Shown here: positions 8,409-43,028 of the stretch, one piece after another
Numbering within the stretch: the first letter of the stretch is position 1
Layout of the letters: the number at the start of each line of letters is the position of its first letter
Origin: Candidatus Kuenenia hertensis
GTDB taxonomy: Bacteria > Planctomycetota > Brocadiia > Brocadiales > Brocadiaceae
Assembly: GCA_021646465.1 (NCBI GenBank)
Contig: SOET01000029.1
Coordinates: forward strand, 1-55,804
Direction: 5' to 3'
DNA length: 55,804 nucleotides
Translations under genes and position numbers: made by a program
The notes under the pieces: model-generated
What the model saw: only the letters and a program-made list of their open reading frames with translations
The model's database searches: none
Told to the model about the DNA's origin: nothing

Positions 8409-9071
8409 TCAATACTTTGATACATTTAATTCTTCCATTTCTCCCGTAACCATATATACCGTTCTTTCCGCAATATTTGTCACCCTATCCGCAATGCGTT
8501 CCAGGTTATGAGAAACCCATGTTAAATATGTTGCAAGATTGATTACCTTTGGGTTACTCATCATCAGCAGCAAAAGTTCGTGATAAATCTGGTCGTGGAG
8601 TGCGTCAACCTTATCATCTTCGTCACAAACGCTCCTTGCCGCCTCTACATCCCTTTCAATAAAAGCCTTGAGAGATTTTTCCAGCATAGCAATACCGATT
8701 TCCCCCATTCTGGGTATGTCGACCAGCGGTTTTATCAGAGGTTCATCACCTATCATAATATTTATCTTTGCGTTCCCCTCAGCGTGATCACCCATACGCT
8801 CCAGGTCGGTTATAATACTCAGGATAGCGGTCAACGTCCTTAAATCAACCGCAAGAGGTTGTTGTGTCGCAATAAGGACAATACATTTTTCCTCGATATC
8901 AAATCGTTTTCTGTTTATCTCCTGATCTTTTTTTATAATTTCCTTGGAAGCCTCTATGTCTCTTGTTTTCAATGCTTCTATGGAATCCCTTATTGCCTGC
9001 GAAACCATTTTCCCCATCTCAAGCACCTCATCCTGCAGGTCTTTCAAGGCTTTGTGATATGCTTCACGCAC
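8409..9071 (-). CDS. phoU: Phosphate transport system regulator PhoU
   Basis: This 220-residue protein is of normal PhoU length, with two PhoU three-helix repeats. The conserved E/D-rich metal-binding motifs fall around residues 79-100 (DLERMGDHAEG) and 183-200 (NLERIADRVTNI). PhoU links the Pst transporter to the PhoR/PhoB system and represses the Pho response when phosphate is ample; it is cytosolic and membrane-associated. The start is GTG with AGGAG eight bases upstream. It is the last gene of the pst block but is separated from pstB by a 190-bp MITE, so co-transcription may be reduced or may depend on read-through of that element. Confidence 0.95.
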   Translation of the reverse strand: MREAYHKALKDLQDEVLEMGKMVSQAIRDSIEALKTRDIEASKEIIKKDQEINRKRFDIEEKCIVLIATQQPLAVDLRTLTAILSIITDLERMGDHAEGNAKINIMIGDEPLIKPLVDIPRMGEIGIAMLEKSLKAFIERDVEAARSVCDEDDKVDALHDQIYHELLLLMMSNPKVINLATYLTWVSHNLERIADRVTNIAERTVYMVTGEMEELNVSKY

Positions 9072-9161
9072 TATAATATCTCCTGCTTTTTCTAAAAGTG
9101 GACAAACACACTGCTTTCAATCATCATAACACGCCTGAATATTTCAGTTACGAAATATATA

Positions 9162-9168
9162 TTATTTT
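9162..9168. repeat. 7-bp target-site duplication, left
   Basis: TTATTTT directly abuts the left end of the MITE, and the same seven bases occur at 9359-9365 directly after its right end. This is the pattern left by a transposition event. Confidence 0.6.
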
Positions 9169-9358
9169 TCAGCGTTGTCCGGTTAGAAATTTGCTGGTCT
9201 TATTTTATTGTGTTTGCGTTGTCATTCCCGCATGTTTTTAGCGGGAATCGAGGAAAACAAGGCACACTGGATACCCGATAAACTTGTCCTCGTAAAAACG
9301 GGGAAGCATTCGGGTATGACAAAGCCTTACAAGCAAATTTCTAACCGGACAACGCTGA
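9169..9358 (+). mobile_element. MITE-like element, copy 1 (190 bp, 27-bp TIRs)
   Basis: The 190-bp element is bounded by perfect 27-bp terminal inverted repeats beginning TCAGCGTTGTCCGGTTAGAA. The internal part contains REP-like inverted segments (CATTCCCGC...GCGGGAAT and ATACCCGA...TCGGGTAT). It encodes no transposase, so it is non-autonomous. By eye it is identical over its full length, in inverted orientation, to 17034-17223. A 7-bp duplication TTATTTT flanks it. It sits between pstB and phoU. Confidence 0.85.
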
Positions 9359-9386
9359 TTATTTTTATAAAGGAAAAACATTTTTT

Positions 9387-10154
9387 TTACCCAAACCTGC
9401 CTGTTATGTAATCCTCCGTCTTTTTTTTCTTTGGCTTCGTAAACAACTCGGTGGTATCGTCATACTCCACAAGTTCCCCCATCATAAAGAAGCCCGTGAA
9501 ATCTGAAACCCTTGCCGCCTGCTGCATATTATGCGTTACGATAACCACCGTGTAATCCTTTTTCAGTTCAACCAGCATATCCTCTATTTTTGCCGTGGCA
9601 ATCGGATCTAGTGCAGAACAGGGTTCATCGAGGAGTACAATTTCGGGTTCCATAGCTATTGCCCTTGCAATACAAACCCTCTGCTGCTGCCCCCCCGATA
9701 TCTCAAGCGCGCTGACGTGAAGGCGGTCTTTTACCTCAGTCCACAATGCCGCCCTTGTAAGCGCCTTTTCGCATATATCATCCAATAGGCTTTTTTTCTT
9801 TATTCCCAATACGCGCGGCCCGTATACCACATTCTCATAGATGGTTTTCGGAAACGGGTTCGGTTTTTGGAATACCATGCCCACTCGTTTTCGGAGTTCT
9901 GTAATGTTCATTGACGGATCGTAGATATCCTGCCCCTTAATCTTTATACACCCTTCAATCCTCACATTTTCTATAAGGTCATTCATACGATTCAGGCATC
10001 GGATTAATGTAGATTTGCCACACCCCGAGGGACCGATAAATGCTGTTATCTTTTTTTCTGAAATATCAAAATTTATCCCCTTCAGGGCAAGGGTATCGCC
10101 ATAATAGAAATTTAAGTCTATGATGTTGACTATCGGTTCAGATTTTTTTTTCAT
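9387..10154 (-). CDS. pstB: Phosphate ABC transporter ATP-binding protein PstB
   Basis: This 255-residue protein is of typical PstB length. It has Walker [10 protein letters not shown] at about residues 43-51, the Q-loop in [12 protein letters not shown] signature SGGQQQR, Walker [14 protein letters not shown], and the H-loop His in [10 protein letters not shown]. It energises phosphate import through the PstC/PstA channel at the cytoplasmic membrane. The GRFG ending is typical of the family. It follows pstA on the same strand after 86 bp. The Shine-Dalgarno is weak (a GAGG about 20 bases upstream). Confidence 0.97.
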
Positions 10155-10240
10155 TTTGCCGTCTGTAATAGCTCACCTCATACTAAAAATATATCATTAT
10201 TACGTCTTTTAAAAAATTCTTTTTTATTATTAATTTACTT

Positions 10241-11839
10241 TTATACTAATGATGTTTTGTATTTCTTTCGCAACTTATTCCTTATTACTATGGCCACTAT
10301 ATTTAACGTGAGCACCGTAAAAACTAACACGAGAGTTGTTGTGTACACCATAGGAATTGCCGCCTCGACATTGGGGGATTGAAACCCCACGTCATAAATA
10401 TGAAAGCCAAGGTGCATAAATTTTCTTTCTAAATGAATAAAGGGGAAGTGGTGATCGATTGGAAGGGAAGGTGCAAGTTTCACGACGCCGGTAATCATCA
10501 GCGGCGCAACCTCACCTGCGGCTCTCGCCATTGCCAGAATTGTGCCGGTAAGTATGCCGGGGGTTGCCTGGGGAAGCACTACTTTCCACAGGGTTTCAAA
10601 TTTTGTGGTGCCAAGCGCATATGAACCTTCCCTGATGGCTCTTGGCACAGAAGATAAAGCCTCTTCTGTGGCAACAACTACAACAGGAACCGTCAATAAC
10701 GCCAGAGTAAGAGACGCCCACAAAATACCACCGGTTCCATAAGTCGGGGTGGGTAATGCCTCGCTGAAGAATATCTTATCAACAGACCCCCCGATAAAAT
10801 AGATAAAAAATCCCAACCCAAATACCCCAAACACTATCGAAGGAACACCCGCTAAGTTATTCACCGCTATTCTTACTATGCGTGATAAAAAATTATCACT
10901 TGCGTATTCTTTTAAATATATCGCCGTCAACACGCCAAGAGGCACAACCGCAATGCTCATAATAAATACCATCATAACCGTGCCAAAAATTGCGGGGAAA
11001 ATACCTCCTTCCGTATTGGCTTCTCTGGGCTCCCCGGAGACATATTCCCATAACTTTGATACGTAAAAACCCATTTTACTAACGATATGCATATTATTGG
11101 GAGTATACATGCGCACCACCTGAAAAACGGGCAGGACCTTTTCACTGTCATCCGCAAGGCGTATAATGAACTCCTTTTTCCTCGCTTCAGTGTATAATTC
11201 AGTAAGTAGCGCTTCTTTTTCAGAATAGGTTTTTTCAAGCGCCTCTATTTTTTCTTTTACTCTGTCTGCTTTCTTCTGTAATTTTTCCGATGGCAGCTGC
11301 ATGATTAAACTTCTTAATTTAATGCGGTTTTTCTCTATCAGATGATTAATATCACCTATTTCTTTTTTTTCTATATGCCGTATCCGTTCGTAAAGCATTT
11401 TGCTTTCTTTAACAAGTTCCCGCGCTTCATCCATGCCAACTACTTCAGTTTTGTTGTCTTTTCTAAGACCCTCTAAAAACCCATACATATTACCCCATTC
11501 ACGTCTCTCAATAGTTATGGCAGACAACGGATAGTCCATTGAAGCAATGTCATCATCATTTATCCATTTAAAATCCAAACCATAAACATCTCTGTTGCCT
11601 ACTTTCAATTTTGACCGGTAAGCATCTTCCTCGTACGGAACGGATTCCCTCTTTACCAATTCTCCCAAAACCACAACATTGTCTTTAAGGCAAATGCTGA
11701 CAATTTTGTGCGGCCAAAACATGCCGAGTCCTTTTATCATAATGAGCATAACAAGACCGCATATCATTAACAGGCAAATAGTCAGTGCACTTGCCGTTAG
11801 CCACACGTAAGGATTCCCGGACTTAAAAAAGTTTTTCAT
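10241..11839 (-). CDS. pstA: Phosphate ABC transporter permease PstA, long form
   Basis: At 532 residues this is well above the usual 280-300. TM1 is at about residues 13-36. A large, mostly extracytoplasmic, coiled-coil-rich insert spans about 45-270 (an EKLQKKADRVKEKIEALEKTY type stretch). The MetI-like permease core spans about 285-525, with the EAA-type loop EGSYALGTTKFETLWKVVLPQATPGI. It forms the membrane channel with PstC. The ATG overlaps the stop of pstC by 4 bp (ATGA), indicating translational coupling. The periplasmic extension matches the long form of PstC next door, so the pair likely evolved together. Confidence 0.93.
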   Translation of the reverse strand: MKNFFKSGNPYVWLTASALTICLLMICGLVMLIMIKGLGMFWPHKIVSICLKDNVVVLGELVKRESVPYEEDAYRSKLKVGNRDVYGLDFKWINDDDIASMDYPLSAITIERREWGNMYGFLEGLRKDNKTEVVGMDEARELVKESKMLYERIRHIEKKEIGDINHLIEKNRIKLRSLIMQLPSEKLQKKADRVKEKIEALEKTYSEKEALLTELYTEARKKEFIIRLADDSEKVLPVFQVVRMYTPNNMHIVSKMGFYVSKLWEYVSGEPREANTEGGIFPAIFGTVMMVFIMSIAVVPLGVLTAIYLKEYASDNFLSRIVRIAVNNLAGVPSIVFGVFGLGFFIYFIGGSVDKIFFSEALPTPTYGTGGILWASLTLALLTVPVVVVATEEALSSVPRAIREGSYALGTTKFETLWKVVLPQATPGILTGTILAMARAAGEVAPLMITGVVKLAPSLPIDHHFPFIHLERKFMHLGFHIYDVGFQSPNVEAAIPMVYTTTLVLVFTVLTLNIVAIVIRNKLRKKYKTSLV

Positions 11840-14112
11840 AGTTTGCTATATTTCTTTTTCATCTTTTGCCGAATCACTTCGGCCAGTGTATTCACAATAA
11901 ACGTTGTTACAAAAAGAATAAGCGAGGCAAGAAAAAGCACCCTGTACAGAGTTCCGCCGAACGGCGCTTCGGGTATTTCCACAGCAATGTTTGCGGCAAG
12001 CGCCCTGAATCCGTTAAATAAATTCCAGTCCATAATAGGCGTATTACCCGTTGCCATAAGGACGATCATGGTCTCCCCCACTGCCCTGCCGAAACCTATC
12101 ATAACAGCAGAAAAAACCGCCGGGCTTGCGGCCGGGAGCACAACCTTTACGGCAGTTTGCCACGGTGTTGCACCAAGCGCCAAAGAAGCAGATACCAGGC
12201 TTTTCGGGACATTGCTCATGGCGTCTTCGGATATGGTAAAAATAAGGGGGATTACCGCAAACCCCATAGCAAAGCCTACTACAACGGCGTTTCTCTGATC
12301 ATAGTGTAGTCCGGTAACGTTTAATAACCATTGCCGGTAATCTCCTCCGAATGCAAACGTTTCAAAAATCCCTGAGAGGCAAATAGACCCGAAAATGGCA
12401 CCGACAATGAATGGTATCAAAACCAACGCTTCCATACCATGTTTGTATCGGCCTTTACCAAAAGCAGGAAGTATTTTCCAAACAAATATGGCAGTGGCAA
12501 TGGAAAGTACAATAAATAACGGCATGATAATCAATGAAGGGAGAATTTTCTCAATCAACGGCGCGAGCCATAATCCTGCAAGAAAACCAAGAATAACACT
12601 CGGAAGCGCCGCCATCAATTCAATAACAGGTTTTACTATTTTTAATGAATAATGAAGAAACTGTGAGGTATAAAGGGCTCCAAATATGCCGATTGGTACG
12701 GCAAAAAGCAAGGCGTAAATGGTGCCTTTAATTGTGCCGAAAATCAAAGGCACAAGGCTTAACTTTGGCTCAAAATCGTCCGTTCCGCCGGTAGACTGCC
12801 AGACATATTCCGGTTTCTCGTAGCCTTCATACCATACCTTTCCAAATAATGTCTTCATGGTAACTTCAGGATGGGGATTTGAAATGTCCCACCGGAATAA
12901 TTTACCCGTTGAATCTGTAACCAAAATACCATTTGCCTTTTGAGAAAAAGCGAGAGCAGTTACAACAGAGTTTATATTTAAGTTCAGCAATGTACGTTCG
13001 GAGGTGGCATGATGGAGATGAATTGAACCATTTGATGATGCGGTAACAAAGCACTTGTTTCTGACAGAGGGTGCAATTGCCGTAACAGGGCCATTATGGG
13101 ATTGAAAGGTATGTATCTTTTTTAACGACCAGCCAAAGGATGATAATTCATCCCTGACCTGCATCCATGTATTTATGTTACCATCAGAATCTCCAACTAC
13201 CAATGAAATGTCACCCAACAAAAAACCCAAAGCCGTTACCGGCTTGTCTGAAACCTTTATTCTTTCCAGGATAACCGGTTCTTCTTTGTCTCTTACATTT
13301 ATATGTATCAATTCACCTGAATTGGCGCCAACATAGAGATTTTCCATAAAATGGTCAAGGACAAGGGATGTTATTACAACCTCATTTTCCGGCAGCGAAT
13401 GGTCTGTGCCTGCCCCTGATGTTGAAGATATGGGTTTGAGTGATTTCTTTAAGAGAGGAGTAATATCTTTTTTAACTTCCCTTTTTTCTCCTTCGCCAAA
13501 AAGGGAGGTTTCTATCTCTGAAGACAAAAGCAGCAACCTTCCATTTTCAGTATGTACTGCTGTTAAGGCAGCATCCTCATCACCCTTTGATGCTATGTGT
13601 TTTATGGCAAAAGGTTCATAATCATTGTCGGCCCCTTCTGCCCGGACTAATTCCTGCAATGAAATATGCGGTACTATAGTCCTTTTCCCATCCTCAAACA
13701 CTTCGGAAAAATGAATGAAGAGTGTTGCAATTTTTCCGTCATCTGTTCCTAAAATATGAAGGTTTTTATGTTTGTCAAAAGAAGTTATATGAGAATTTCC
13801 CAATTCCTGAATATCGTGTTTCCTGATAACACTTCCATCGATCAATGAGAAGAACTCAATACTGCCGTTCCCATAAATGGCATAAGCAATCTCCATGTGT
13901 TCATCTGCACCTATGCAAACGGCTCCCTGGTGAAGGGAAAAGACAGTATTTTTTTTTATTTTAGCGCCTTTTAAGAGGGGAAAGACCTCTAAAAAGATAA
14001 AAATGAATAAGGCAAGTATTACAAATATGGTAGCTACACCGCTGCAGGTAATCAACCAATGGGCGGTTTTATCGGTAAACTTTCTCCTTTTCAGACTTTT
14101 CAGAGTTTTCAT
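11836..14112 (-). CDS. pstC: Phosphate ABC transporter permease PstC with periplasmic beta-propeller-like insert
   Basis: This 758-residue protein compares with about 300-330 for E. coli PstC. TM1 is at about residues 20-45. A large insert of about 400 residues (50-445) then carries WD40-like repeats (for example KKIHTFQSHNGPVTAIAPS and SSNGSIHLHHATSERTLL), consistent with a periplasmic beta-propeller. The permease core at about 460-750 contains the EAA-type loop SASLALGATPWQTAVKVVLPAA. Long PstC proteins of this kind are known from several phyla. It pairs with the long PstA encoded immediately downstream. About 380 bp of repeat-bearing sequence separates it from pstS. Confidence 0.92.
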   Translation of the reverse strand: MKTLKSLKRRKFTDKTAHWLITCSGVATIFVILALFIFIFLEVFPLLKGAKIKKNTVFSLHQGAVCIGADEHMEIAYAIYGNGSIEFFSLIDGSVIRKHDIQELGNSHITSFDKHKNLHILGTDDGKIATLFIHFSEVFEDGKRTIVPHISLQELVRAEGADNDYEPFAIKHIASKGDEDAALTAVHTENGRLLLLSSEIETSLFGEGEKREVKKDITPLLKKSLKPISSTSGAGTDHSLPENEVVITSLVLDHFMENLYVGANSGELIHINVRDKEEPVILERIKVSDKPVTALGFLLGDISLVVGDSDGNINTWMQVRDELSSFGWSLKKIHTFQSHNGPVTAIAPSVRNKCFVTASSNGSIHLHHATSERTLLNLNINSVVTALAFSQKANGILVTDSTGKLFRWDISNPHPEVTMKTLFGKVWYEGYEKPEYVWQSTGGTDDFEPKLSLVPLIFGTIKGTIYALLFAVPIGIFGALYTSQFLHYSLKIVKPVIELMAALPSVILGFLAGLWLAPLIEKILPSLIIMPLFIVLSIATAIFVWKILPAFGKGRYKHGMEALVLIPFIVGAIFGSICLSGIFETFAFGGDYRQWLLNVTGLHYDQRNAVVVGFAMGFAVIPLIFTISEDAMSNVPKSLVSASLALGATPWQTAVKVVLPAASPAVFSAVMIGFGRAVGETMIVLMATGNTPIMDWNLFNGFRALAANIAVEIPEAPFGGTLYRVLFLASLILFVTTFIVNTLAEVIRQKMKKKYSKL

Positions 14113-14492
14113 GGGCTATATTAATTAGATGGCCTTTGGCAGCGACTTTTTTAATTAGGCCTTTGGCTACTTATAATTGCATATTTTCACAATACGGTTG
14201 GTCCACCCCCTTCACCCCCGCCAGCGGGGGACATTTGTTGTCCCCCTCACTGAAGGGGATTAAGGGGGAGGAGAAAACTTTGAAATTCCTAAACATTTAA
14301 TTAGGCCGTCGGCGGCTTTCAACAGAGTAAGGTGGGACATTGCCCACCCTACAAAGATTGAAATTCCTAAACATTAAAATTATGCGGGATAAAAAAACCA
14401 CCCCCTTTTCCCCATCTTTGTACCAAGAAATAAATAAGGAGTGGCTATGAAAATACAAGAGAAACGTAACTATTGATAACAGCAATATGATA
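14113..14492. other. Repeat-rich pstS-pstC spacer
   Basis: No gene is seen in this 380-bp spacer. It holds a C/G-rich hairpin (CCCCCGC-CA-GCGGGGG, 14215-14230) inside a longer strand-asymmetric C- and G-run element. It also has two copies of TTGAAATTCCTAAACATT (14280-14297 and 14358-14375) and several copies of TTAATTAGGCC/ATGGCC-like words. This looks like layered small repeat insertions inside an operon. The hairpins may lower pstC-pstA-pstB expression relative to pstS. Confidence 0.5.
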
Positions 14493-15479
14493 CTATTCTA
14501 TCTTCTGAAGTTCTTTCTTAAGTGCTAACGCCGGCAGGGGCATATATCCGTCTTTAATAGTAACTTCCTGACCGTCTTTACTCAGGATAAATTTAACAAA
14601 TTCCTTTACCAATGGGTCAAGCGGCTGCCCTGGTTTCTTATTAATGTAAATGTAAAGGAACCGCGCCAGTGGGTAACTGCCGTTAATTACGTTTTCCATT
14701 TCCGCTTCAACAAAGTGCCTGCCCTCTTTTTCGGCCAGGGGCACGGCACGAACTCCTGAAGTTCTGTAACCGATTCCGCTGTAACCGATAGCATAACGAT
14801 CCTCAGTAACCCCCTGCACCACAGAGGCTGATCCGGGCTGTTCTTTTACCGTACTTTTATAGTCGCCTTTAAAAAGTGCATGTTCCTTAAAATAACCATA
14901 AGTGCCGGAAGCGGAATTACGCCCGTAAAGACTTATCGGCTTGGATGCCCAATCTGCCGTCAATCCAAGCTGTCCCCATGTAGTAACGTCTTCTTTGTAT
15001 CCGCCTCTTCTTGTCTTTGAAAAAATAGCATCAAGCTGTTGCAAACTCAGACCCTTTACAGGATTGTCTTTGTTCACATATACGGCAAGGGCGTCGAGTG
15101 CCGTCCTTATTTGTGTAGGCTTGTACCCATATTTTTTTTCAAATGCGTCTATTTCTGTTGGTTTCATAGGCCTGCTCATCGGTCCGATTTGCGCCGTACC
15201 CGAAATTACTGCCGGTGGTGCAGTTGTAGAACCTTTTCCCTCTATTTGAACCTTTACACTCGGATACAACCTGTTAAACCCTTCTGCCCAAAACGTCATA
15301 AGGTTATTCATGGTGTCTGAACCGATGCTGTTCAGGTTTCCGGAAACACCACCAACCTTAACGTAGGCTTTAATATCCGGGTCAACCTTTAAAGCCCCTT
15401 CTGCATAAACTGTGCTTACCGCACCAAAACTCAGAATAGCCGATACCAGCCATACTTTTTTGATCATGTTTTTTATCAT
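14493..15479 (-). CDS. pstS: Phosphate ABC transporter substrate-binding protein PstS
   Basis: This 328-residue protein starts at the ATG at 15479, chosen because AAAGGAGA lies about seven bases upstream and a normal signal peptide follows (cleavage near VYA-EGA). Extending to 15620 would overlap the porin gene and precede the signal peptide. Phosphate-binding motifs are seen: the GSDTMNNL loop, KGSTTAPPAVISGTAQIGPMSRP, and LYGRNSASGTYGYF. It binds periplasmic phosphate and delivers it to PstC/PstA. It follows the porin by 82 bp on the same strand. Confidence 0.96.
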   Translation of the reverse strand: MIKNMIKKVWLVSAILSFGAVSTVYAEGALKVDPDIKAYVKVGGVSGNLNSIGSDTMNNLMTFWAEGFNRLYPSVKVQIEGKGSTTAPPAVISGTAQIGPMSRPMKPTEIDAFEKKYGYKPTQIRTALDALAVYVNKDNPVKGLSLQQLDAIFSKTRRGGYKEDVTTWGQLGLTADWASKPISLYGRNSASGTYGYFKEHALFKGDYKSTVKEQPGSASVVQGVTEDRYAIGYSGIGYRTSGVRAVPLAEKEGRHFVEAEMENVINGSYPLARFLYIYINKKPGQPLDPLVKEFVKFILSKDGQEVTIKDGYMPLPALALKKELQKIE

Positions 15480-15561
15480 ACCATCTCCTTTAATTTCTGC
15501 CGCATGTATGTGCGGTATCTTACTAGAATTTATGTTAAAAATCGACTCATTTTTCTCTTTT

Positions 15562-16986
15562 TTAGAACATAATCTGATATAACACCCTGAGCTTGTTTTC
15601 ATTTTCATCCTCTTCTTCACCCTCCGTCACAAAATGACCGAAGTCTGTTTGCACCTTTGAACGGTGGCCGCGAAAGTAATAGTTAACTCCAACAGTATAT
15701 TCCCTTTGCGTATCATTTGATATATCATCATCGGGATCAATCATCGCATAGCGGCCTGCAAGCTCCAGTTTCTTCGGGAGAATAAAATAACCTAGCTGCG
15801 TGTGAAAACCTTCTGATTCCAAAGATTCACCCCCTGATTCCAGGTCTCTTGACATAAAATAATATTCGTTGTTCCACGAAATCCCTTTATATACTAACCC
15901 GCAATCAATAGTCCCGGTAATATTATCATAATCTTCCTCTTTCACATCTTTCCGCTTACCATTAAAAGCAACGGACGCGCCAATGGTTGCTTTTAATGTA
16001 TCGGAATACGCCAAATCCGTTTCATCATAATAGTTATATTCCCCAAACGGATTATAGCGTGCATGCAGGACAAACATAAGCTCATTATCAAAATTTTCAT
16101 CGCCCTGAAACCAGTCTGCCTGATCCTCTCCTGCCCCCTGAAACATCGCCACGTGATATTCCATATGCCCGTCAAAGGGTTTTCCATATAAATCTACCCC
16201 GTAATCACGGTCCTGGTCAAAGAACTCGCTGGCAATAGACCTGTCCTGAAGCAAAAGAGATGAAGAGGATGATACTCTCTGCCTGTTAAACGGCACCTTA
16301 AAATACCCGATTTTGGTATTTAATTCATCAAAGGGCGTCCAGTATACGTAAAAATCCCTTACCCCTACGTCGAACTTATCCCCGTCAATCTCAACAAAAT
16401 AATGCAGGTCTTTGCTGTAGATATTCCCGCCAAAGTTAAGCCTTGCACGGCGGACGTCGATATTTTGCGTATCCGACTCTCCGAAATCATCGTCCTTATC
16501 CTTGTATTGATATTGCATCTGCAATCGACTGCCAATATTAAGGGAATATCTGCCGTCGGGCGTTCTGATACTCAAAGCAGACTTTTTATGTTCCGGCGTA
16601 TATTCAACGATCATATTCGGCATACCAACTCCCAGAATTTCCCTTGCTTCGTCTGTGGAAAGATATTCCTGCACCGCCTGTTTTGTCTCTTCCTTCACCG
16701 CAACCTTCGTCGCTTCGTCCGTAGATAAATATTCCTTTACTGCCTGCTTTGTCTCTTCCTTCACAACAACCTTTGTTTCCATACTTATTGCTTCTATCCG
16801 ATTTCTTAACGCCTCCATTTGTTCCTGCTGTCGTGCAAACGCCTCTTCCATCTGCTTCAACTGCCATTTTAAATCATCAATTTCTCCGGCAGACACGGTT
16901 TTGCTTTGAACCATATTTCCAATACAAACACTGAAAGGTATCAGTGCCACCAAAAATGAATATTTCACCCATTTTTTACCTCTCAT
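15562..16986 (-). CDS. Phosphate-selective porin (OprO/OprP family)
   Basis: This 474-residue protein starts at the ATG at 16986, with AAAGGAG seven bases upstream and a signal peptide (KKWVKYSFLVALIPF...VSA). The frame stays open upstream into a MITE, but that extension is element-derived. After the signal comes a coiled-coil-like segment containing a two-unit 22-residue repeat. The OprO/P barrel follows (SLNIGSRLQMQY, VRRARLNFGGNIYSKDLHYFVEIDG, RDYGVDLYGK) and ends in an aromatic (QIMF). It should form an anion/phosphate-preferring outer-membrane channel supplying PstS. A 190-bp MITE lies 47 bp upstream of the start codon. Confidence 0.92.
   Translation of the reverse strand: MRGKKWVKYSFLVALIPFSVCIGNMVQSKTVSAGEIDDLKWQLKQMEEAFARQQEQMEALRNRIEAISMETKVVVKEETKQAVKEYLSTDEATKVAVKEETKQAVQEYLSTDEAREILGVGMPNMIVEYTPEHKKSALSIRTPDGRYSLNIGSRLQMQYQYKDKDDDFGESDTQNIDVRRARLNFGGNIYSKDLHYFVEIDGDKFDVGVRDFYVYWTPFDELNTKIGYFKVPFNRQRVSSSSSLLLQDRSIASEFFDQDRDYGVDLYGKPFDGHMEYHVAMFQGAGEDQADWFQGDENFDNELMFVLHARYNPFGEYNYYDETDLAYSDTLKATIGASVAFNGKRKDVKEEDYDNITGTIDCGLVYKGISWNNEYYFMSRDLESGGESLESEGFHTQLGYFILPKKLELAGRYAMIDPDDDISNDTQREYTVGVNYYFRGHRSKVQTDFGHFVTEGEEEDENENKLRVLYQIMF
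16642..16773 (-). repeat. Two tandem 66-bp units within the porin gene
   Basis: The porin encodes two successive 22-residue units of pattern K-V-x-V-KEETKQAV-x-EYLSTDEA, at 16708-16773 and 16642-16707. They differ at only a few residues. They lie in the predicted helical/coiled-coil neck before the barrel, so unit number would change neck length. Confidence 0.8.
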
Positions 16987-17033
16987 TAAAAAGCTCCTTT
17001 TTTTCAAAAAGTGTTCAATACTACTACCCGGTT

Positions 17034-17223
17034 TCAGCGTTGTCCGGTTAGAAATTTGCTTGTAAGGCTTTGTCATACCCGAATGCTTCCCCGTTTTTAC
17101 GAGGACAAGTTTATCGGGTATCCAGTGTGCCTTGTTTTCCTCGATTCCCGCTAAAAACATGCGGGAATGACAACGCAAACACAATAAAATAAGACCAGCA
17201 AATTTCTAACCGGACAACGCTGA
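17034..17223 (-). mobile_element. MITE-like element, copy 2 (190 bp, inverted)
   Basis: This is the exact reverse complement of 9169-9358 by eye, with the same 27-bp terminal inverted repeats. No clear target duplication is visible here: the left flank is CCCGGTT and the right flank is GGATACT. It lies between the DUF3562 gene and the porin, separating the porin from the upstream Pho-box-like promoter of psiE. The element contains an ATG-initiated frame that runs into the porin gene. Confidence 0.85.
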
Positions 17224-18283: not shown

Positions 18284-20059
18284 TCAGAATTTCCAGAAAA
18301 ATGGGATCAATACGACAGCCATAATCCAAAGCAGCAGATTCAGCGGCCCGCCAATTCTTAAGAAATCGGTAAACCGATACCCTCCCGGCCCGTAAACCAT
18401 CATATTCGTCTGGTAACCAATAGGCGTCATAAAGCTTGCAGATGCAGACAAAATCAGAGCAACAAGAAAAGGACGAGGACTTGTATCATAGAGCCTTGCG
18501 GTTTCAAGGCAAAATGGAAAGAGTAAAACAGCCACAGCATTATTGGTAATAGCTTCGGTCATGAGCGATCCGAGGAGGTAAAAAATAGCCAATGCCACAA
18601 TTGGGCCGTATGGCTTTGTAGTTTCAACAAGAAGTGTTGCAACAGTTGTAGCCAGCCCTGAGTTTTGCAAGGCAGCGCCGACGCCGAATGAAGAAGCTAT
18701 GGTAATAAGCACCTTCCATTCAATGCTTTGCCGTGCGTCTCCGGCGGATATACACCCGAGACCCACCATGAAGAGAGCCGTAAGGATGGATACGATATGA
18801 ACAGGAATCCATCCTGTTGTCATAAATCCTATTAATACAAGAAATAAAGACACGGAAATCCATGCCCTATCCCTGCGCAGCGGTCGCCATCCCTCAACAT
18901 TGCTGACAAGGTAAAATGCAGGGTCGTTTCGGTGTGCCCTCAAAAAATGCGGCCTCACTTGCAGGAGGAGGGTATCTCCCGGCTGCAGGCGTATATCGCC
19001 AATCTTTTTTTCAACACGCCTGCTGCCCCGATGAACAGCTACCACCGCAGCGCCATACGAGGCACGGAAATCAGCATTACGGATGGTTTTTCCTATGAGG
19101 GGAGAATTTTCAGAAATTACTGCTTCGCACAAACGGCGCCTGCGCTGCTGTTTTGGAGAAACCTCATAGGCGGTATCTGCATTTGGTATAATGCCGGGAA
19201 TTTTTTCCAGCTCAATAATACTGCTTACCACCCCCGTGAAAACCAACTGGTCATTTGCCTCTATCACATCATCCGGACTCACCGGGCTAATAATCGTGCC
19301 GGCGCGGTCAATCTCTATAAGGAACAACCCCGGAAGTTTTCTTAGCCCTGCCTGCTCAACCGTTTTCCCGATCAATTTACACCCGGACTGCACCATCATT
19401 TCCACTAAATATTCTCTCCTGGTCTCGCCAAGCTGTTCAAGAAATTCTTTACGGTCGGGAAGCAACTTTAAACCTGCAAAGAACAGATACACAAAGCCTG
19501 CAAGGGCATAGGGAAGTCCTGCCATCCCAATCTCAAAGAGGTGCATTCCGGATAACCCATGCTTGATCATTAAACCCTGTACGACAAGATTGGTCGATGT
19601 ACCAATCAGCGTACACGTTCCGCCAAGAATCGCTAAAAAGGAGAGCGGGATCAATAATTTTGAGGGAGACACCAGATGTTTTCTGCACCAATCCAATACA
19701 ACCGGCACGAACATTGCAACGATGGGAGTATTATTCAAAAAGGCTGACATTGGAAGCACTACCACTGCCAATCTCCCCAAGACGCTTTTTTCTGTCGTTG
19801 CTTTCCCGAGAACATGGTGTCCGATGTAATCCAGCACCCCGGTTTCACGCAGTCCGGCAGCCACTACAAATAAAGCGGCTACGGTTAACATGCCTGAATT
19901 TGAAAATCCGGCAAAAGCCTCTGCCGGCGTAATAATGCCAAGCGCCGCCAGACTCGCTGTAGCCCCTAAAAATAACAGGTCTGGCGGTGCAAGATTCCTG
20001 ATAAGACAAACAAAAATGCCCACAACTACCGATAAGGTTATCCACGCTTCGTAACTCAT
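18284..20059 (-). CDS. SLC13-family permease with two TrkA-C (RCK_C) domains
   Basis: This 591-residue membrane protein has two transmembrane halves (about residues 1-190 and 395-590). They are separated by two RCK_C/TrkA-C-like domains (about 205-290 and 300-385; motifs LIGKTVEQAGLR and LIGKTIRNADFR). SLC13/DASS hallmarks are seen: SAFLNNTPIVAMF, GTSTNLVVQGL, and EAITNNAVAVLLFPF in the second half. Relatives carry sulfate, dicarboxylates or other anions, usually with Na+. The substrate here is not determined; the Rrf2 gene immediately upstream hints at sulfur or redox control. A 31-bp palindrome precedes the gene. Confidence 0.9.
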   Translation of the reverse strand: MSYEAWITLSVVVGIFVCLIRNLAPPDLLFLGATASLAALGIITPAEAFAGFSNSGMLTVAALFVVAAGLRETGVLDYIGHHVLGKATTEKSVLGRLAVVVLPMSAFLNNTPIVAMFVPVVLDWCRKHLVSPSKLLIPLSFLAILGGTCTLIGTSTNLVVQGLMIKHGLSGMHLFEIGMAGLPYALAGFVYLFFAGLKLLPDRKEFLEQLGETRREYLVEMMVQSGCKLIGKTVEQAGLRKLPGLFLIEIDRAGTIISPVSPDDVIEANDQLVFTGVVSSIIELEKIPGIIPNADTAYEVSPKQQRRRRLCEAVISENSPLIGKTIRNADFRASYGAAVVAVHRGSRRVEKKIGDIRLQPGDTLLLQVRPHFLRAHRNDPAFYLVSNVEGWRPLRRDRAWISVSLFLVLIGFMTTGWIPVHIVSILTALFMVGLGCISAGDARQSIEWKVLITIASSFGVGAALQNSGLATTVATLLVETTKPYGPIVALAIFYLLGSLMTEAITNNAVAVLLFPFCLETARLYDTSPRPFLVALILSASASFMTPIGYQTNMMVYGPGGYRFTDFLRIGGPLNLLLWIMAVVLIPFFWKF

Positions 20060-20081
20060 ACAATAATCCCTCCTTTATGAA

Positions 20082-20112
20082 AATATAGTCTATAGAACTA
20101 ATAGACTATATT
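20082..20112. promoter_or_regulatory. Rrf2-type operator upstream of the SLC13 gene
   Basis: There are perfect 12-bp arms AATATAGTCTAT and ATAGACTATATT with a 7-base centre. The palindrome is in the 64-bp gap between the regulator and transporter genes, about 25 bp upstream of the transporter start. A related palindrome precedes the regulator gene itself. Confidence 0.7.
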
Positions 20113-20123
20113 GCCAAAAATTT

Positions 20124-20564
20124 TTATCGCTTTTTTTTCTCTAATTTTGATTCCCTCCGGATAATCTCACTCAGGGTTGCTGCCTTCAGCAATTCAACTG
20201 TTTCGTCTCGCACTTCTTTAAAAACTTCACGAATGCCGCATGTCTCCTCATCTTTACACTCTTCACACCGCTCATAATATTGATATGTAACACACGGTAA
20301 AAGTGCTATTGCACCATCAAACAACCGGATAATTGTAGCCAGATTTACTTCGTCAGGACTTTTTAACAAATAATACCCCCCACCCTTTCCCTTTTTGCTG
20401 GCAAGAATGCCGGCATGCTTAAGGTCGCTCAGAATCGTCTCTAAAAATTTTTGAGGGATCTTTTCACTTTCTGCAATGTCTCTTATGAGTATGGGACCCT
20501 TATTGTATTCTCTTGCTAATTTAACAAGCGCAATAATAGCGTATTTAACCTTTTTTGAAATCAT
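20124..20564 (-). CDS. Rrf2-family transcriptional regulator, cysteine-containing
   Basis: This 146-residue protein has the winged-helix domain at about 1-65 (ALVKLA, IRDIAESEKIPQKFLETILSDLKHAGI, SKKGKGGGYYL). The family's regulatory region carries Cys91, Cys100, Cys103 and Cys109, spaced much like the Fe-S ligands of IscR/NsrR-type members. It probably senses redox, iron-sulfur, NO or sulfur status. Near-identical palindromes in front of this gene and of the SLC13 gene suggest autoregulation and direct control of the transporter. A CymR-like non-cluster regulator is the alternative. Confidence 0.92.
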   Translation of the reverse strand: MISKKVKYAIIALVKLAREYNKGPILIRDIAESEKIPQKFLETILSDLKHAGILASKKGKGGGYYLLKSPDEVNLATIIRLFDGAIALLPCVTYQYYERCEECKDEETCGIREVFKEVRDETVELLKAATLSEIIRRESKLEKKKR

Positions 20565-20599
20565 CGTATTTACACATCGTAATGGACAATAATTCTATT

Positions 20600-20622
20600 T
20601 AGTCTATAAGATTTATAGATTA
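20600..20622. promoter_or_regulatory. Rrf2-type operator upstream of the regulator gene
   Basis: TAGTCTATAA-GAT-TTATAGATTA is an inverted repeat with one mismatch. Aligned from AGTCTATA it has the same half-site spacing as the operator at 20082-20112. It begins about 36 bp upstream of the Rrf2 start codon, consistent with autoregulation. Confidence 0.65.
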
Positions 20623-21102
20623 TATAGAAATTTATTTTCATTTCAAATATTTTTTATTAATACTCTAACCAAAAGAAGCCGGAATTACATATTAAAACGC
20701 TTTTGCAGAAGATCTTCACCTTGTTTTGGGTCGAAACTGTCGTGGTTTGGCGATACGTTTAACCTGTTCCTTTTATCTCTGGATATCATTTCGTGGTTTA
20801 AGTTGCTGTTCCATACGGAGCAGATAAAGTATTACCCACAATCGCAGCATCACTTGAAATAAAAAGAGGATGTAAAGAAAGAGATATTATTTTTTTCACG
20901 TATGCTTTCACTCTCCTTTAACAAACACCTTTTGAACTCTTTGTATGAAATGCCCGAAAAGGGCCGCGTGCGCTTACAACCTCCAACACCCCTTTTGCAG
21001 TAGGCCTTTTTTTGGCTTATTTTTTTCGAAATAGTAAAAAGATTTTCGCACAACTTATGTGTAATCTAATTTGTATTAGGGCAGTGCCGTGCTCTACTCA
21101 TT
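20623..21102. other. Intergenic, no gene seen
   Basis: About 480 bp. Six-frame reading gives only short frames with no recognisable family. The region is AT-rich with a more GC-rich patch near 20950-21010. No tRNA or riboswitch-like structure was convincing. Confidence 0.4.
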
Positions 21103-34486: not shown

Positions 34487-34634
34487 GACACACTCCTTAA
34501 AAAAAATTTAAAATACGACACTATAACACCAGTAACACATACTATTAAACTCCTGATTTTCCCTCCTTTCATTAGAAATATTAAATGTATTACAATTATA
34601 AATAGACTATATCAGTTTTTTTAATCTTGCGTTA

Positions 34635-35516: not shown

Positions 35517-36470
35517 CTAAAGGAAAGAGTACCGCCACGAATTCCAGCAGCTATTCGTTGTCACTTTCTCATACATTTCAGGTAAGGGATAAACAACTCT
35601 AACATCCGGATAATTAAGCGCAAATAAGCAAGCTCCTAAAGCCATGGGTTTGGTACCTAGCGGTGCAATGTTAATAAATGATTTTCCATTTTCATTTTTA
35701 ATGCCTTCGAGAATATTAAATACCTCAAAAGGATTATTTGCCCTACTGAATTTGACTTTAATATCTCTATCACTTGTAAGCTTCTCATTTGCGACTAAGC
35801 TTATATCTTTAAATTTTGGAGAATAGCTTGGAAAACCATTTATTACCAATGTTTCTGATGGAGAAATATCTTCGTTTATTTCTTTGGATAAATCGCCGTC
35901 AAAACCTAATAAAATAACCAAAACCCTTCTATCCCCTCTTGATTCATAACCTGAAAACCCTGGAATTTCTAAAATTGTAAGGGGACCGGTACTTGAACGA
36001 TATGCGCTAGAAATTCCACCTGGAAATAGATAAAATTGAGGTTCAGTATAAAAAACACTTATGGAATCGATCTTAAATCTTTCTTTAAAAAGTTTGAGCA
36101 GATAAAAGAAGTATGGTTTTGTAAAACAAGAAATATCTAATGCAATTTTGGGGGCAGTTGTAGATAAAAATTCAGCTTCCAAAGGAATTAAATCTTGCAG
36201 ACAAGAATTTGGATCTCTAATAGAACATTTAATAGGTAAAATATTATTGAAACCAATTGTTTGATATTCAAAATAAGGGTCACTTTTATCAATATCTCGA
36301 ACCCGTTCATAAAAATCAAAAAGTAATATCTTATTAATTGCGGTATCTTTGGATTTCATCTTTCTTAATACTTCATAAGCCCTATAATCAGAACCTCCAG
36401 ACAGAAGAAAGAAATCATGGTCATTTATTTCGCCAGAAATTAAATCCATTTGATAAACCAACTTTCTCAT
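35517..36470 (-). CDS. CARF/Rossmann-like protein in a conflict-system operon
   Basis: This 317-residue protein was not confidently recognised. The C-terminal half contains FINIAPLGTKPMALGACLFAL..PDVRVVYPLP, reminiscent of the (T/S/L)GTKPMA signature of CARF-type nucleotide-sensing domains. The N-terminus (HDFFLLSGGSDYRAYEVL) and middle (ALDISCFTKPYFFYLLKLF) also show Rossmann-like strand-loop patterns, so it may be a duplicated Rossmann protein. No nuclease motif is seen. It is the last gene of the four-gene operon, 6 bp after the ATPase gene. A sensor or regulatory role is inferred. Confidence 0.7.
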   Translation of the reverse strand: MRKLVYQMDLISGEINDHDFFLLSGGSDYRAYEVLRKMKSKDTAINKILLFDFYERVRDIDKSDPYFEYQTIGFNNILPIKCSIRDPNSCLQDLIPLEAEFLSTTAPKIALDISCFTKPYFFYLLKLFKERFKIDSISVFYTEPQFYLFPGGISSAYRSSTGPLTILEIPGFSGYESRGDRRVLVILLGFDGDLSKEINEDISPSETLVINGFPSYSPKFKDISLVANEKLTSDRDIKVKFSRANNPFEVFNILEGIKNENGKSFINIAPLGTKPMALGACLFALNYPDVRVVYPLPEMYEKVTTNSCWNSWRYSFL

Positions 36471-36476
36471 ATTGAA

Positions 36477-38441
36477 TCAAACAAACAGTTTTTTTTGTAT
36501 AAATTTTTTTCCTGATTCATCATTCATTTGTTTAAGATAATCTTTTGAACTAACATTTTCTTCACTCATTAATTTTATAATATCCGATGCAGTCAACTTT
36601 ACTGAATGCCCTCCTCGTGTCCTATAAGAAATTTGGAAGCTTGGTGAAAAAATTCTGTTAATGGTGTAAATATCTTCTAAGTACTTTCCAGGAGAAGATT
36701 GTTGAAGGTTAGGTTTCTTCTGAATTACACTCCATCTTATAGCAGCCTTCATTGCATCTTTAAATTTTTGGTCAGGCAAGTTATCAATGTCTGCCGAAAA
36801 TTGATTTGTCTCAGGATATCTAATACCTTTGTCTTTATGAAAATCCCTAAAAATATTTCCAATATTATTTATGAATTTATATATAATTCCTCCAAACTTT
36901 TCGATCCTATTTATCTGTTGCAATTCAGCCGCAGAAAAATCTGATGCAGCCTTTGTTTGTTGCTCATTAGATATTTTCCCTTCTTTGATTAAAAGGTCTT
37001 TATTTTCGAATTCAGCATACTGAAAAGACCTTCTACATAGTTCAATAAAATTTCCTACTATTCCAGATGATAAAAAAGAGAAGGTATTAAAGCTGTAATA
37101 TTTTTTATGTTTTCGATAAATGGAGCATAGCAAAAACATTAAAGACAATTTGTATTTATCTACATAATCCATATGATACTTTTTTTCATTTTTCCCAGTT
37201 TTATTACCATTTAGATAATCTTCCATAGCATTTTTAACTTCATCTACTTTAACACCTCTGAGTACCCATAAAATATTTAAAAGTTCTAATAAAGGATTTT
37301 CCTTATAGGTAATAGCATCAATATCAGAAGCTGTAAGAAATTTTTTAAAATGATCAAAGTGTTTCCCAGGGTTTTTGGAAACTAATTCTAATGCCTCTTC
37401 TTCGAGGTTCTCAGTTTTTGATAAAAATTCAGCTATATCTATCTTCCCATTTTCCTTAAAAATGGATACCGATTCCAATCGCTTTTTAGATACCTCCTTC
37501 AGGAAATGATAATAGCCTTCGTCTTTTATAAGAACTTCTTCAAAAATAACTTTTCTATACTCTCTTCCTTCCTTAATAAAATCATCTTCGGAAATCATAT
37601 TAAAAGTTCTAAATCCCTCTAATCTCATCCCTATTCGGAACCTGATTTCATTCTTTGAAAATCTTAATAAGGTATTTATTACGCGTTGTTGGGGCTCAAG
37701 GTAATTTTCATATTCATCTATCAGTAATATAAAATTTATTGATTCCTTTAATTCGGAAATTGTTTTTTTTGCGATTTCAGGGATACCAAAGCTTAAACAT
37801 TGTGAGGCAAATCCACCTTTGGAGGGAATAAAATCATTCTTGAAAAATGGGATATTTCCACGAAACCTGTCGACTTCTTTAATTCTATTATCAAATTCAC
37901 TTAAAAGTGCTTCTAACGATTGGATTTGTGGTTCATTAATAATTTGCCTTACTTCTGGTATGAATTGATCTTCTATTTCGTCCCTTTTTAGGTTCTCTAA
38001 ATCGTAAAGCTTTTTAATTGCTTCAATATAATTTCTTCCCACAATAAGTTCAAAGTAATGCGTGAAAATAGAATTCCATTTCTTGGTATCTATTCCAAAA
38101 CCATCAAATGACCTTAGAACTGGACCATCTATTCTGATATAGAATCCAAGTCCTTTTTTTTCTTTAAAATAGTCTATTATCCTCTTGGCTTTGTTATTTG
38201 CTTTATTTTGACAAGCTAACTTCAATTGAACGGGAAATGACCAATATCTTAAAAACATTGTTTTCCCCGTACTTCTACCACCCATAAAAACAATATTACT
38301 AGGATCCTCGTAAATGTCTGTCTCTTTAATCTCAGAGAAAAGACGATAAACAAAAGGGCTACACCAATAATCCAAAATGGCTTGGTCATCAAGAGTTACT
38401 GCATTAATTCCACTAAATGGATTTCTATAAGAATTTTTCAT
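36477..38441 (-). CDS. ORC/Cdc6-like AAA+ ATPase of a conflict system
   Basis: This 654-residue protein has Walker A MGGRSTGKT at about residues 53-61 and Walker B FILLIDEYENY at about 239-249. The sensor-like segment IRFRIGMRLEG follows, then a long helical C-terminal region. The layout fits the ORC-CDC6-like ATPases that comparative genomics places in prokaryotic conflict systems beside a PRTase-like protein. It probably uses ATP to recognise or remodel DNA and switch an effector. It overlaps the upstream PRTase-like gene by 17 bp, implying translational coupling. Composition is AT-rich relative to the chromosome. Confidence 0.8.
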   Translation of the reverse strand: MKNSYRNPFSGINAVTLDDQAILDYWCSPFVYRLFSEIKETDIYEDPSNIVFMGGRSTGKTMFLRYWSFPVQLKLACQNKANNKAKRIIDYFKEKKGLGFYIRIDGPVLRSFDGFGIDTKKWNSIFTHYFELIVGRNYIEAIKKLYDLENLKRDEIEDQFIPEVRQIINEPQIQSLEALLSEFDNRIKEVDRFRGNIPFFKNDFIPSKGGFASQCLSFGIPEIAKKTISELKESINFILLIDEYENYLEPQQRVINTLLRFSKNEIRFRIGMRLEGFRTFNMISEDDFIKEGREYRKVIFEEVLIKDEGYYHFLKEVSKKRLESVSIFKENGKIDIAEFLSKTENLEEEALELVSKNPGKHFDHFKKFLTASDIDAITYKENPLLELLNILWVLRGVKVDEVKNAMEDYLNGNKTGKNEKKYHMDYVDKYKLSLMFLLCSIYRKHKKYYSFNTFSFLSSGIVGNFIELCRRSFQYAEFENKDLLIKEGKISNEQQTKAASDFSAAELQQINRIEKFGGIIYKFINNIGNIFRDFHKDKGIRYPETNQFSADIDNLPDQKFKDAMKAAIRWSVIQKKPNLQQSSPGKYLEDIYTINRIFSPSFQISYRTRGGHSVKLTASDIIKLMSEENVSSKDYLKQMNDESGKKFIQKKLFV

Positions 38442-39345
38442 TTATTGCTAATTCTCTTCTTTTATAATTCTTATCGTACCTTTTAAATATTGGATACCAA
38501 CCATTGCCTGTTCCCCAAAATATAGGCAATGTATTATCCGGGGTATTATAAAAAAAACCAAAAGCATATTCGCCCTTCTCATAACCTAAAGGCCAATTAC
38601 TATCAATTTTATTGCCATAATGCAATACAAAATTTTTACATATTATCCTATACCTTGAATAAGTATGGAAAATATCAGAAACAGGACTAAAGCATTTGTT
38701 TCTATTATCTAAAATAATTGTTGTAACAACCTCTACTCCAATCTTTTTTAACTCCGTAATCGCAACTTCGCTTGCAATTAAAGTTAAAAGGATAATTTTT
38801 TTATTTGGATAATCTGATTTTATTTTTTTAAGTTTCCTGTAAGCCTGTCCACTTTTGCCTGCTGTTAAGGTGACATCATCAATATAAACCAAATTATCAA
38901 CTGAATCAGTATCACCTTTTTTTGAGAAAATGAAATAGGAAATATGAAGGTCATTAATTCGTCTAAAATGATACAAAATATATCCACCACTCTCGCTAGC
39001 TTCCCCAAGGGCTAAAAAACGAGTTCTTGCAATTATTTCAGCTAAATCATTATCAATTTTATCTTGTATGGTATTCGCATCAATCAAGATTTTATGAATA
39101 AAATCTCTCATTAAAACCTTGCAAAGATGAATGACTTCATCATCATTGTAATATACAAAATTTGATAACAGCCATAATGCAAGTACCTTTTCCTCATCTG
39201 CCGTTAAAACCTCTCCATTAAAATTATTTAACCATCTATCAATTTCCTTTTCGGTAATTTCATACTTCCATACGGTTGCACTCGTATGCATTATGAGTTT
39301 TTTTAGTTCTATGATTGAAGGAAAAACTTGTAATATTTTATTCAT
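38425..39345 (-). CDS. Phosphoribosyltransferase-like protein (conflict-system type)
   Basis: This 306-residue protein has the PRPP-binding loop of type I PRTases, VYIDDVTLTAGKSG, at about residues 152-165. A C-terminal motif FFYNTPDNTLPIFW......PIFKR follows, which I associate with the PRTase family found in prokaryotic conflict operons. An N-terminal helical region (about 1-100) has no clear assignment. It could transfer ribose phosphate to a nucleobase or make a modified nucleotide, or be a catalytically inactive nucleotide sensor. It lies 7 bp after the methyltransferase gene and overlaps the ATPase gene. Confidence 0.8.
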   Translation of the reverse strand: MNKILQVFPSIIELKKLIMHTSATVWKYEITEKEIDRWLNNFNGEVLTADEEKVLALWLLSNFVYYNDDEVIHLCKVLMRDFIHKILIDANTIQDKIDNDLAEIIARTRFLALGEASESGGYILYHFRRINDLHISYFIFSKKGDTDSVDNLVYIDDVTLTAGKSGQAYRKLKKIKSDYPNKKIILLTLIASEVAITELKKIGVEVVTTIILDNRNKCFSPVSDIFHTYSRYRIICKNFVLHYGNKIDSNWPLGYEKGEYAFGFFYNTPDNTLPIFWGTGNGWYPIFKRYDKNYKRRELAINEKFL

Positions 39346-39352
39346 GATTCAG

Positions 39353-40246
39353 TTAAATTTTAAAGCGCCCTTCTGATCCTTTAATATACGATTCATTTAT
39401 TTCTACTGAAATCCATTTTCTTTTTAATTTCTCAGCAACACAACCGGTAGTATTACTGCCACCAAAAGGATCAAAAACTAAATCGCCGGGGTCTGTTAAA
39501 AATTTTATAAAAAAATCAGGAATGAATTCTGGCATTCTGGCAGGGTGTAGTTCTATTTTATTCCTTTTACAATGTTCAATATATTTTGATGTTGCGTTTG
39601 TATTTGCTCCAATTAAGACATTCGGTGGGATTGCACCATTATTATCTTTCAAAAACGATTTCTCTCCTATTGAATGCTCCGATGGTCTTCGCCCCGAGTT
39701 GTACTTTTTTTTATTAAGAAGTTTTTTCATCGATTCGCTGTATTCTTCAAGTACATTTCGATTGTTTGCTTTAGGATGTGGCGTTTTACTTAACCACCAT
39801 ATATGAGTAAAAGCATCTTTGACTCTAACTCTTTCTACATTTACCCATTGAACAGGACTGGGAAGTCTGGCAGTATTAAACCATATAAAATGTTGACATA
39901 AAAAATACTTTCCTTTTTCTTGAAATTCCAATAAAGCTCTTAAAGGCAGCGTAGACATTATTGGCCTATTTGCTTCCCAAGCATTACCAAGCTCAATGAC
40001 TATAGAGCCATCTTTTGTAAGAAAATCTCTAAAACCCAAAGCTAATCCAGACAGCCAACTTGTGTATTCTTTTCCATTAAAATTACCATATTTTTTCTTT
40101 CGGTTTAATGGAAAAGGAGGAGACGTAAAAATTAGATTAACCTTCTTTTTATATCTGGCAAAAGCTTTTGACTTCAATATTTCACCAATATCACATTGAT
40201 AGAAAAGCCCTAATTTTGTTTTATATGCTGTTTTAATTTGAGCCAT
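39353..40246 (-). CDS. Site-specific DNA methyltransferase, N4-cytosine type (beta class)
   Basis: This 297-residue protein has catalytic motif IV TSPPF at about residues 41-45 (LIFTSPPFPLNRKKKYGN). The AdoMet-binding motif I DPFGGSNTTG lies near the C-terminus (about 265-274). The order IV before I is that of beta-class methyltransferases, and TSPPF is typical of N4-cytosine enzymes such as PvuII-like ones. It modifies a specific DNA sequence; the target is unknown. It is the first gene of the four-gene operon with no restriction-enzyme gene beside it. It probably marks host DNA as self. Confidence 0.92.
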   Translation of the reverse strand: MAQIKTAYKTKLGLFYQCDIGEILKSKAFARYKKKVNLIFTSPPFPLNRKKKYGNFNGKEYTSWLSGLALGFRDFLTKDGSIVIELGNAWEANRPIMSTLPLRALLEFQEKGKYFLCQHFIWFNTARLPSPVQWVNVERVRVKDAFTHIWWLSKTPHPKANNRNVLEEYSESMKKLLNKKKYNSGRRPSEHSIGEKSFLKDNNGAIPPNVLIGANTNATSKYIEHCKRNKIELHPARMPEFIPDFFIKFLTDPGDLVFDPFGGSNTTGCVAEKLKRKWISVEINESYIKGSEGRFKI

Positions 40247-43016: not shown

Positions 43017-43028
43017 CAATTTGTGCTG

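Follow-up and report, generated by a model that had tools for sequence, protein, structure and literature searches.

The DNA analysed here, referred to as the window, is 55,804 nucleotides long and makes up the whole of one contig (C16) of a 4.17-Mb genome assembled in 89 contigs. The genome encodes the hydrazine synthase alpha domain, which was found in none of 14 control genomes, and therefore belongs to an anammox planctomycete. In the window, the gene of an Rrf2-family regulator is followed, 64 bp downstream and on the same strand, by that of an SLC13-type transporter, and the pair is accompanied by two palindromes. The features of the locus are:

18284..20059, minus strand, SLC13/DASS-type anion transporter of 591 aa with two TrkA_C stretches (Pfam)
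20068..20075, minus strand, ribosome-binding site of the SLC13 gene, AAGGAGGG (read from the sequence)
20082..20112, no strand, putative operator 1, with perfect 12-bp arms and a 7-bp spacer, between Rrf2 and SLC13
20124..20564, minus strand, Rrf2-family regulator of 146 aa (Pfam PF02082), with cysteines 91, 100, 103 and 109
20600..20622, no strand, putative operator 2, upstream of Rrf2 and overlapping its -10 box
20619..20646, minus strand, sigma-70-like Rrf2 promoter, TTGAAA-16-TATAAT (11/12 consensus matches)

The regulator is a member of the Rrf2 family, scoring 118.2 bits against PF02082 (cut-off 30) over residues 2-136. The transporter exceeds the Pfam cut-offs of both CitMHS (244.7 bits, cut-off 31.9) and Na_sulph_symp (48.8 bits, cut-off 27), its TrkA_C match reaches 88.7 bits, and it remains below the cut-off of NCBIfam TIGR00785 dass (106.3 bits against 198.6). 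Downstream of it, genes for Porin_O_P, PstS, PstA, PstB and PhoU occupy positions 8409-17184, in an order kept in the related genome G002, with PstC (11836-14112) assigned from gene order and with PsiE-like and DUF3562 genes between SLC13 and the porin. Elsewhere in the window, genes for a CARF6-type protein, an ORC-CDC6-like protein, a PRTase-CE / PRTase_III-A protein and a DNA methylase lie in a row on the minus strand (35517-40246), an arrangement reminiscent of a defence or conflict module linked to CARF. A family B DNA polymerase gene (40698-43019), located here on a bacterial contig, adjoins genes of the acetyl-CoA pathway (CdhD, RACo).

The two palindromes, for which the earlier note had claimed a shared sequence and an equal spacing at 20082-20112 and 20600-20622, do follow a single pattern. 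The core of operator 1 (20086-20108) reads TAGTCTAT-N7-ATAGACTA with no mismatch and operator 2 departs from it at one position with the same spacing. When the window was shuffled 100 times with its dinucleotides preserved, the pattern, at up to three mismatches, matched 0.12 times on average, and 0/100 shuffles had two matches. Their placement is also as had been described, since one site precedes the transporter, ending 27 bp from its start codon (20059), and the other precedes the cysteine-bearing regulator, ending 36 bp from its start codon (20564). The genome search with the palindrome that had been proposed as a check found no site in the 4.17 Mb besides these two when up to two mismatches were allowed; at up to three mismatches there are 13 places (11 of them at exactly three) against 45 for the reversed control pattern. 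A relaxed pattern gave three matches in the same genome against two for its reversed control, the third being a weak place at C42:91536; a wider regulon is thus rejected, and the regulon predicted here consists of two sites. The contigs that carry PAPS-reductase-family genes (C59 and C62) hold no site at up to three mismatches.

The proposed extension of the regulon to a small secreted protein, based on a half-site at about 34605, does not stand. A single arm, ATAGACTATAT, is present at 34602-34612, no second dyad arm was found there, and a weight-matrix scan of the window (score of at least 7) lists the two operators and a weak match at 45122 but not the half-site, which is therefore rejected as a third operator. 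The 10-mer of the half-site is expected 0.07 times under a Markov model, and neither G001 nor G002, the two further genomes of the genus, has a match to the secreted protein downstream of it.

Operator 2 covers the last 4 bp of the TATAAT box of the Rrf2 promoter and should therefore cover the transcription start as well. No strong promoter was found beside operator 1, which counts against the circuit discussed below; no terminator-like signal was found between Rrf2 and SLC13 either, so that read-through from the first gene into the second is possible.

Three genomes of the genus were searched, namely that of the window (G000), G001 and G002. In G002, where the Rrf2 and SLC13 proteins are 94% and 90% identical to those of the window, both operators are kept, with 30/32 identical positions in the arms (16/16 in operator 1 and 14/16 in operator 2) and 7/14 in the spacers (Fisher p = 0.0016), and both hexamers of the Rrf2 promoter are unchanged. 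A dispersed repeat of about 0.5 kb lies in G002 between operator 1 and the SLC13 start, so operator 1 does not stand there at the start codon of the transporter, and this counts against the circuit. This repeat (L041:3376-3870) is one of the dispersed intergenic repeats of the genus, and its pieces have matches at 86 places of G000, 125 of G002 and 57 of G001. An aldo/keto reductase remnant, suspected from G002, was not found upstream of the Rrf2 gene in the window. G001 has no match to the window Rrf2, no site at up to one mismatch and just a 44% identical relative of the SLC13 protein. The closest relatives of the transporter that were found belong to the planctomycetes G010 (73%) and G046 (74%), which have no match to the window Rrf2 and no operator at up to three mismatches around their SLC13 genes; these absences, like those in G001, speak for the circuit.

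The association of the motif with the regulator was followed across phyla in the best 80 loci of the matches listed, a sample chosen by Rrf2 similarity alone. With the window consensus at up to two mismatches, 19 of 20 sites lay no more than 300 bp from the Rrf2 gene, a zone that amounts to 47,551 of 880,827 bases (5.4%), and no such site arose in three runs of simulated sequence with matched dinucleotide composition. The 19 sites are spread over 18/80 loci, and the other 62 have no such site beside Rrf2, which counts against the circuit. A weight matrix at a score of 12 found 40 near sites in 35/80 loci against three far sites, leaving 45/80 with no site, again a point against; since near sites were among the 22 used to train the matrix, its enrichment is partly circular, whereas the 19/20 count was obtained solely with the window consensus. 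SLC13 lies beside Rrf2 in 11 loci, ten of which have a site (score of at least 12) between the two genes, two of these sites standing before an intervening gene; the site of L106 overlaps the called SLC13 start, and L108 has no site. The distance to the SLC13 start codon is 26-28 bp in six loci, compared with 27 in the window, and in L074, L077, L078 and L115 another site stands immediately before Rrf2, reproducing the two-site layout of the window. The earlier note had named absence of the motif upstream of orthologous genes as grounds for abandoning the idea; it is instead present both in G002 and beside many Bacteroidota relatives. A match in G061 was set aside as chance, as it falls inside an ORF that by eye resembles a site-specific recombinase.

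The sites of these relatives also have a recurrent position with respect to promoters. In the 67 of the 80 loci that were taken as Bacteroidota (the other 13 were judged non-Bacteroidota), 20 of 24 sites near Rrf2 at up to three mismatches had within 22 bp a TAnnTTTG box, which we take to be the Bacteroidota -7 element; these boxes point away from the site, and in the same flanks the background is 4.1% of positions. The site therefore lies between or over promoter elements, as does operator 2 in the window, and the Rrf2 protein is on this sequence evidence probably a repressor, blocking of RNA polymerase being the simplest reading of the overlap.

The nearest Rrf2 proteins among the matches listed are those of Bacteroidota, up to 74% identical. 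A tree built from 110 proteins places the Rrf2 proteins of the window and of G002 inside a set of 29 rows, 27 of them Bacteroidota (support 95/91), a nesting which suggests that the regulator was acquired by transfer from Bacteroidota. The transporter does not share this pattern, as the window SLC13 protein has only about 35% identity with those adjoining the Bacteroidota Rrf2 genes.

In the same anammox family, the other genomes mostly have a single matched Rrf2, about 45% identical, and in 5 of 28 fetched loci of these diverged genes a related site (up to three mismatches) follows the Rrf2 gene; in one of the five, L020, the next gene encodes an SsuA-family sulfonate-binding protein, scoring above cut-off. 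Elsewhere in the order, Rrf2 genes are accompanied by variant dyads with a CTAC-N7-GTAG core and the same 7-bp spacing (L022:1968, L032:1434, L029:1438, L033:1438, L034:1967, L037:1443 and L039:1951), which are perhaps operators of a diverged sister group.

In the clade of the window regulator (the best 80 loci with G000 and G002), the cysteines follow the pattern C-x8-C-x2-C-x5-C and are conserved in 82, 82, 81 and 82 of 82 proteins, respectively; the diverged proteins of the order, 28 in number, lack the third of the four and keep three. The AlphaFold model of the window Rrf2 has a mean pLDDT of 87, low in the cysteine loop, which is the loop that holds the cluster cysteines of IscR, RirA, NsrR and RsrR. 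The structures of IscR, NsrR and RsrR share the predicted fold; unlike these regulators and RirA, however, the window protein has an extra cysteine and different neighbour genes, and it remains below the cut-offs for IscR (TIGR02010, 73.8 bits against 207.55), NsrR (26.8 against 182) and RirA (44.6 against 193; both NCBIfam). Among solved structures, that of CymR, the Rrf2-family regulator of cysteine metabolism in Bacillus and Staphylococcus, is the nearest both by sequence (2y75) and by predicted fold (Z 17.2, 1.7 A over 126 residues), although the window protein remains below the CymR cut-off as well (NF047409, 76.2 bits against 195). CymR regulates sulfur genes, according to PMC2940859 and PMC2869319, and binds no iron-sulfur cluster, according to PMC9338935, whereas the clade described here has four conserved cysteines; in fold and gene context the window regulator is therefore CymR-like and in its cysteines IscR-like. 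The transporter resembles the SLT/SAC1-like sulfate transporters, whose membrane part, according to PMC8780407, is of the SLC13 type and carries TrkA-C domains in a loop; the SLT proteins named there are algal.

The neighbours of the Rrf2 relatives bear on the signal. NCBIfam or Pfam identified among them CysD, CysN, CysH, CysT, CysA and a sulfate-binding protein, together with Porin_O_P and an AhpC-type peroxiredoxin, and the operator precedes cysH by 51-73 bp in loci of the Chitinophaga type. By our own clustering of the best 80 loci, only 27/80 have a sulfate-type neighbour, or 41/80 when peroxiredoxin is counted as well, which counts against the circuit favoured below, and 39/80 have neither. 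As the Cys, sulfate-binding and SsuA-family neighbours serve sulfate assimilation and sulfate or sulfonate uptake, sulfur status is, from gene context, more likely to be the signal than NO or iron.

The same autoregulatory circuit could instead respond to iron, Fe-S status, NO or redox, with the transporter as a side target. This is possible but unlikely: the three cysteines of the Brocadiaceae Rrf2 proteins each have an aligned counterpart among the four, the IscR and NsrR structures are close to the modelled fold, and a peroxiredoxin gene lies nearby in 15/80 of the best loci, in several of them with the operator 12-40 bp upstream, but the characterised functions near the relatives are mostly those of sulfur acquisition, the IscR, RirA and NsrR cut-offs are missed by wide margins, and none of the neighbours that were annotated, a part of the total, was recognised as an isc or suf gene. 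Because the Rrf2-SLC13 pair adjoins pstSCAB-phoU, it must also be considered that the transporter carries phosphate and that the circuit serves phosphate supply. PhoB, not Rrf2, is the usual regulator of Pst operons, and the other annotated relatives have sulfate or sulfonate genes as neighbours, so this reading is less probable still, even though the Porin_O_P gene and pstSCAB-phoU follow SLC13 in G000 and G002 alike, an operator precedes a PstS-PstC-PstB-like operon in L083, and phosphate carriers occur among DASS members, as PMC5840216 reports.

That the palindromes have nothing to do with the regulator, being dispersed repeats, terminators or products of chance, is very improbable. Dispersed intergenic repeats are abundant in the genus, but the palindrome has just two copies in the genome at up to two mismatches, shows no terminator signature, is not reproduced as a pair by shuffles of the window and is tied to Rrf2 across phyla.

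We therefore favour, with a probability of roughly 0.77, a local autoregulatory circuit in which an Rrf2 repressor controls itself and the SLC13 transporter, the signal being most likely sulfur or cysteine status and the substrate a sulfate-like anion. The central claim of the earlier note, an Rrf2 autoregulatory circuit with this transporter, is in this way supported, at the level of sequence comparison, by the retention of the operator beside orthologues and Bacteroidota relatives. In the circuit that we infer, an Rrf2 dimer would bind the palindrome, covering at its own promoter the last part of the -10 box together with the presumed transcription start, and blocking at operator 1 transcription into the SLC13 gene; sulfur or cysteine status would be read through the four-cysteine loop, by a bound cluster or by a thiol/persulfide switch, zinc binding being another candidate, and with the signal state lost both genes would be derepressed, the transporter then importing sulfate or a related anion.

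Local control of this kind is standard for Rrf2 proteins, while the operator and the cysteine pattern are apparently new. In the accessible open-licence literature, the only trace found of an operator or a sulfur role for this clade is the annotation of a Rhodococcus Rrf2 protein to sulfate assimilation, which is similar to the role proposed here; the entry, as available, gives neither operator nor cysteine pattern, and the two proteins are set side by side by annotation. Since the search covered mostly papers outside subscription, the novelty is provisional.

More broadly, and tentatively, at somewhat less than even odds, these data may outline a clade of four-cysteine Rrf2 sulfur sensors, in Bacteroidota and several other phyla, that uses one operator to control sulfur acquisition and a peroxiredoxin; an anammox lineage would have received regulator and operator code from Bacteroidota and placed a different, planctomycete-type transporter under their control. 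The result provides a testable operator for a widespread and apparently uncharacterised Rrf2 group, with which sulfur regulons may be read directly from the DNA in Bacteroidota and other phyla. It would also be a case of a regulator crossing phyla with its DNA code fixed while the regulated transporter is of another type, and it suggests that an anion importer is under regulation in anammox bacteria.
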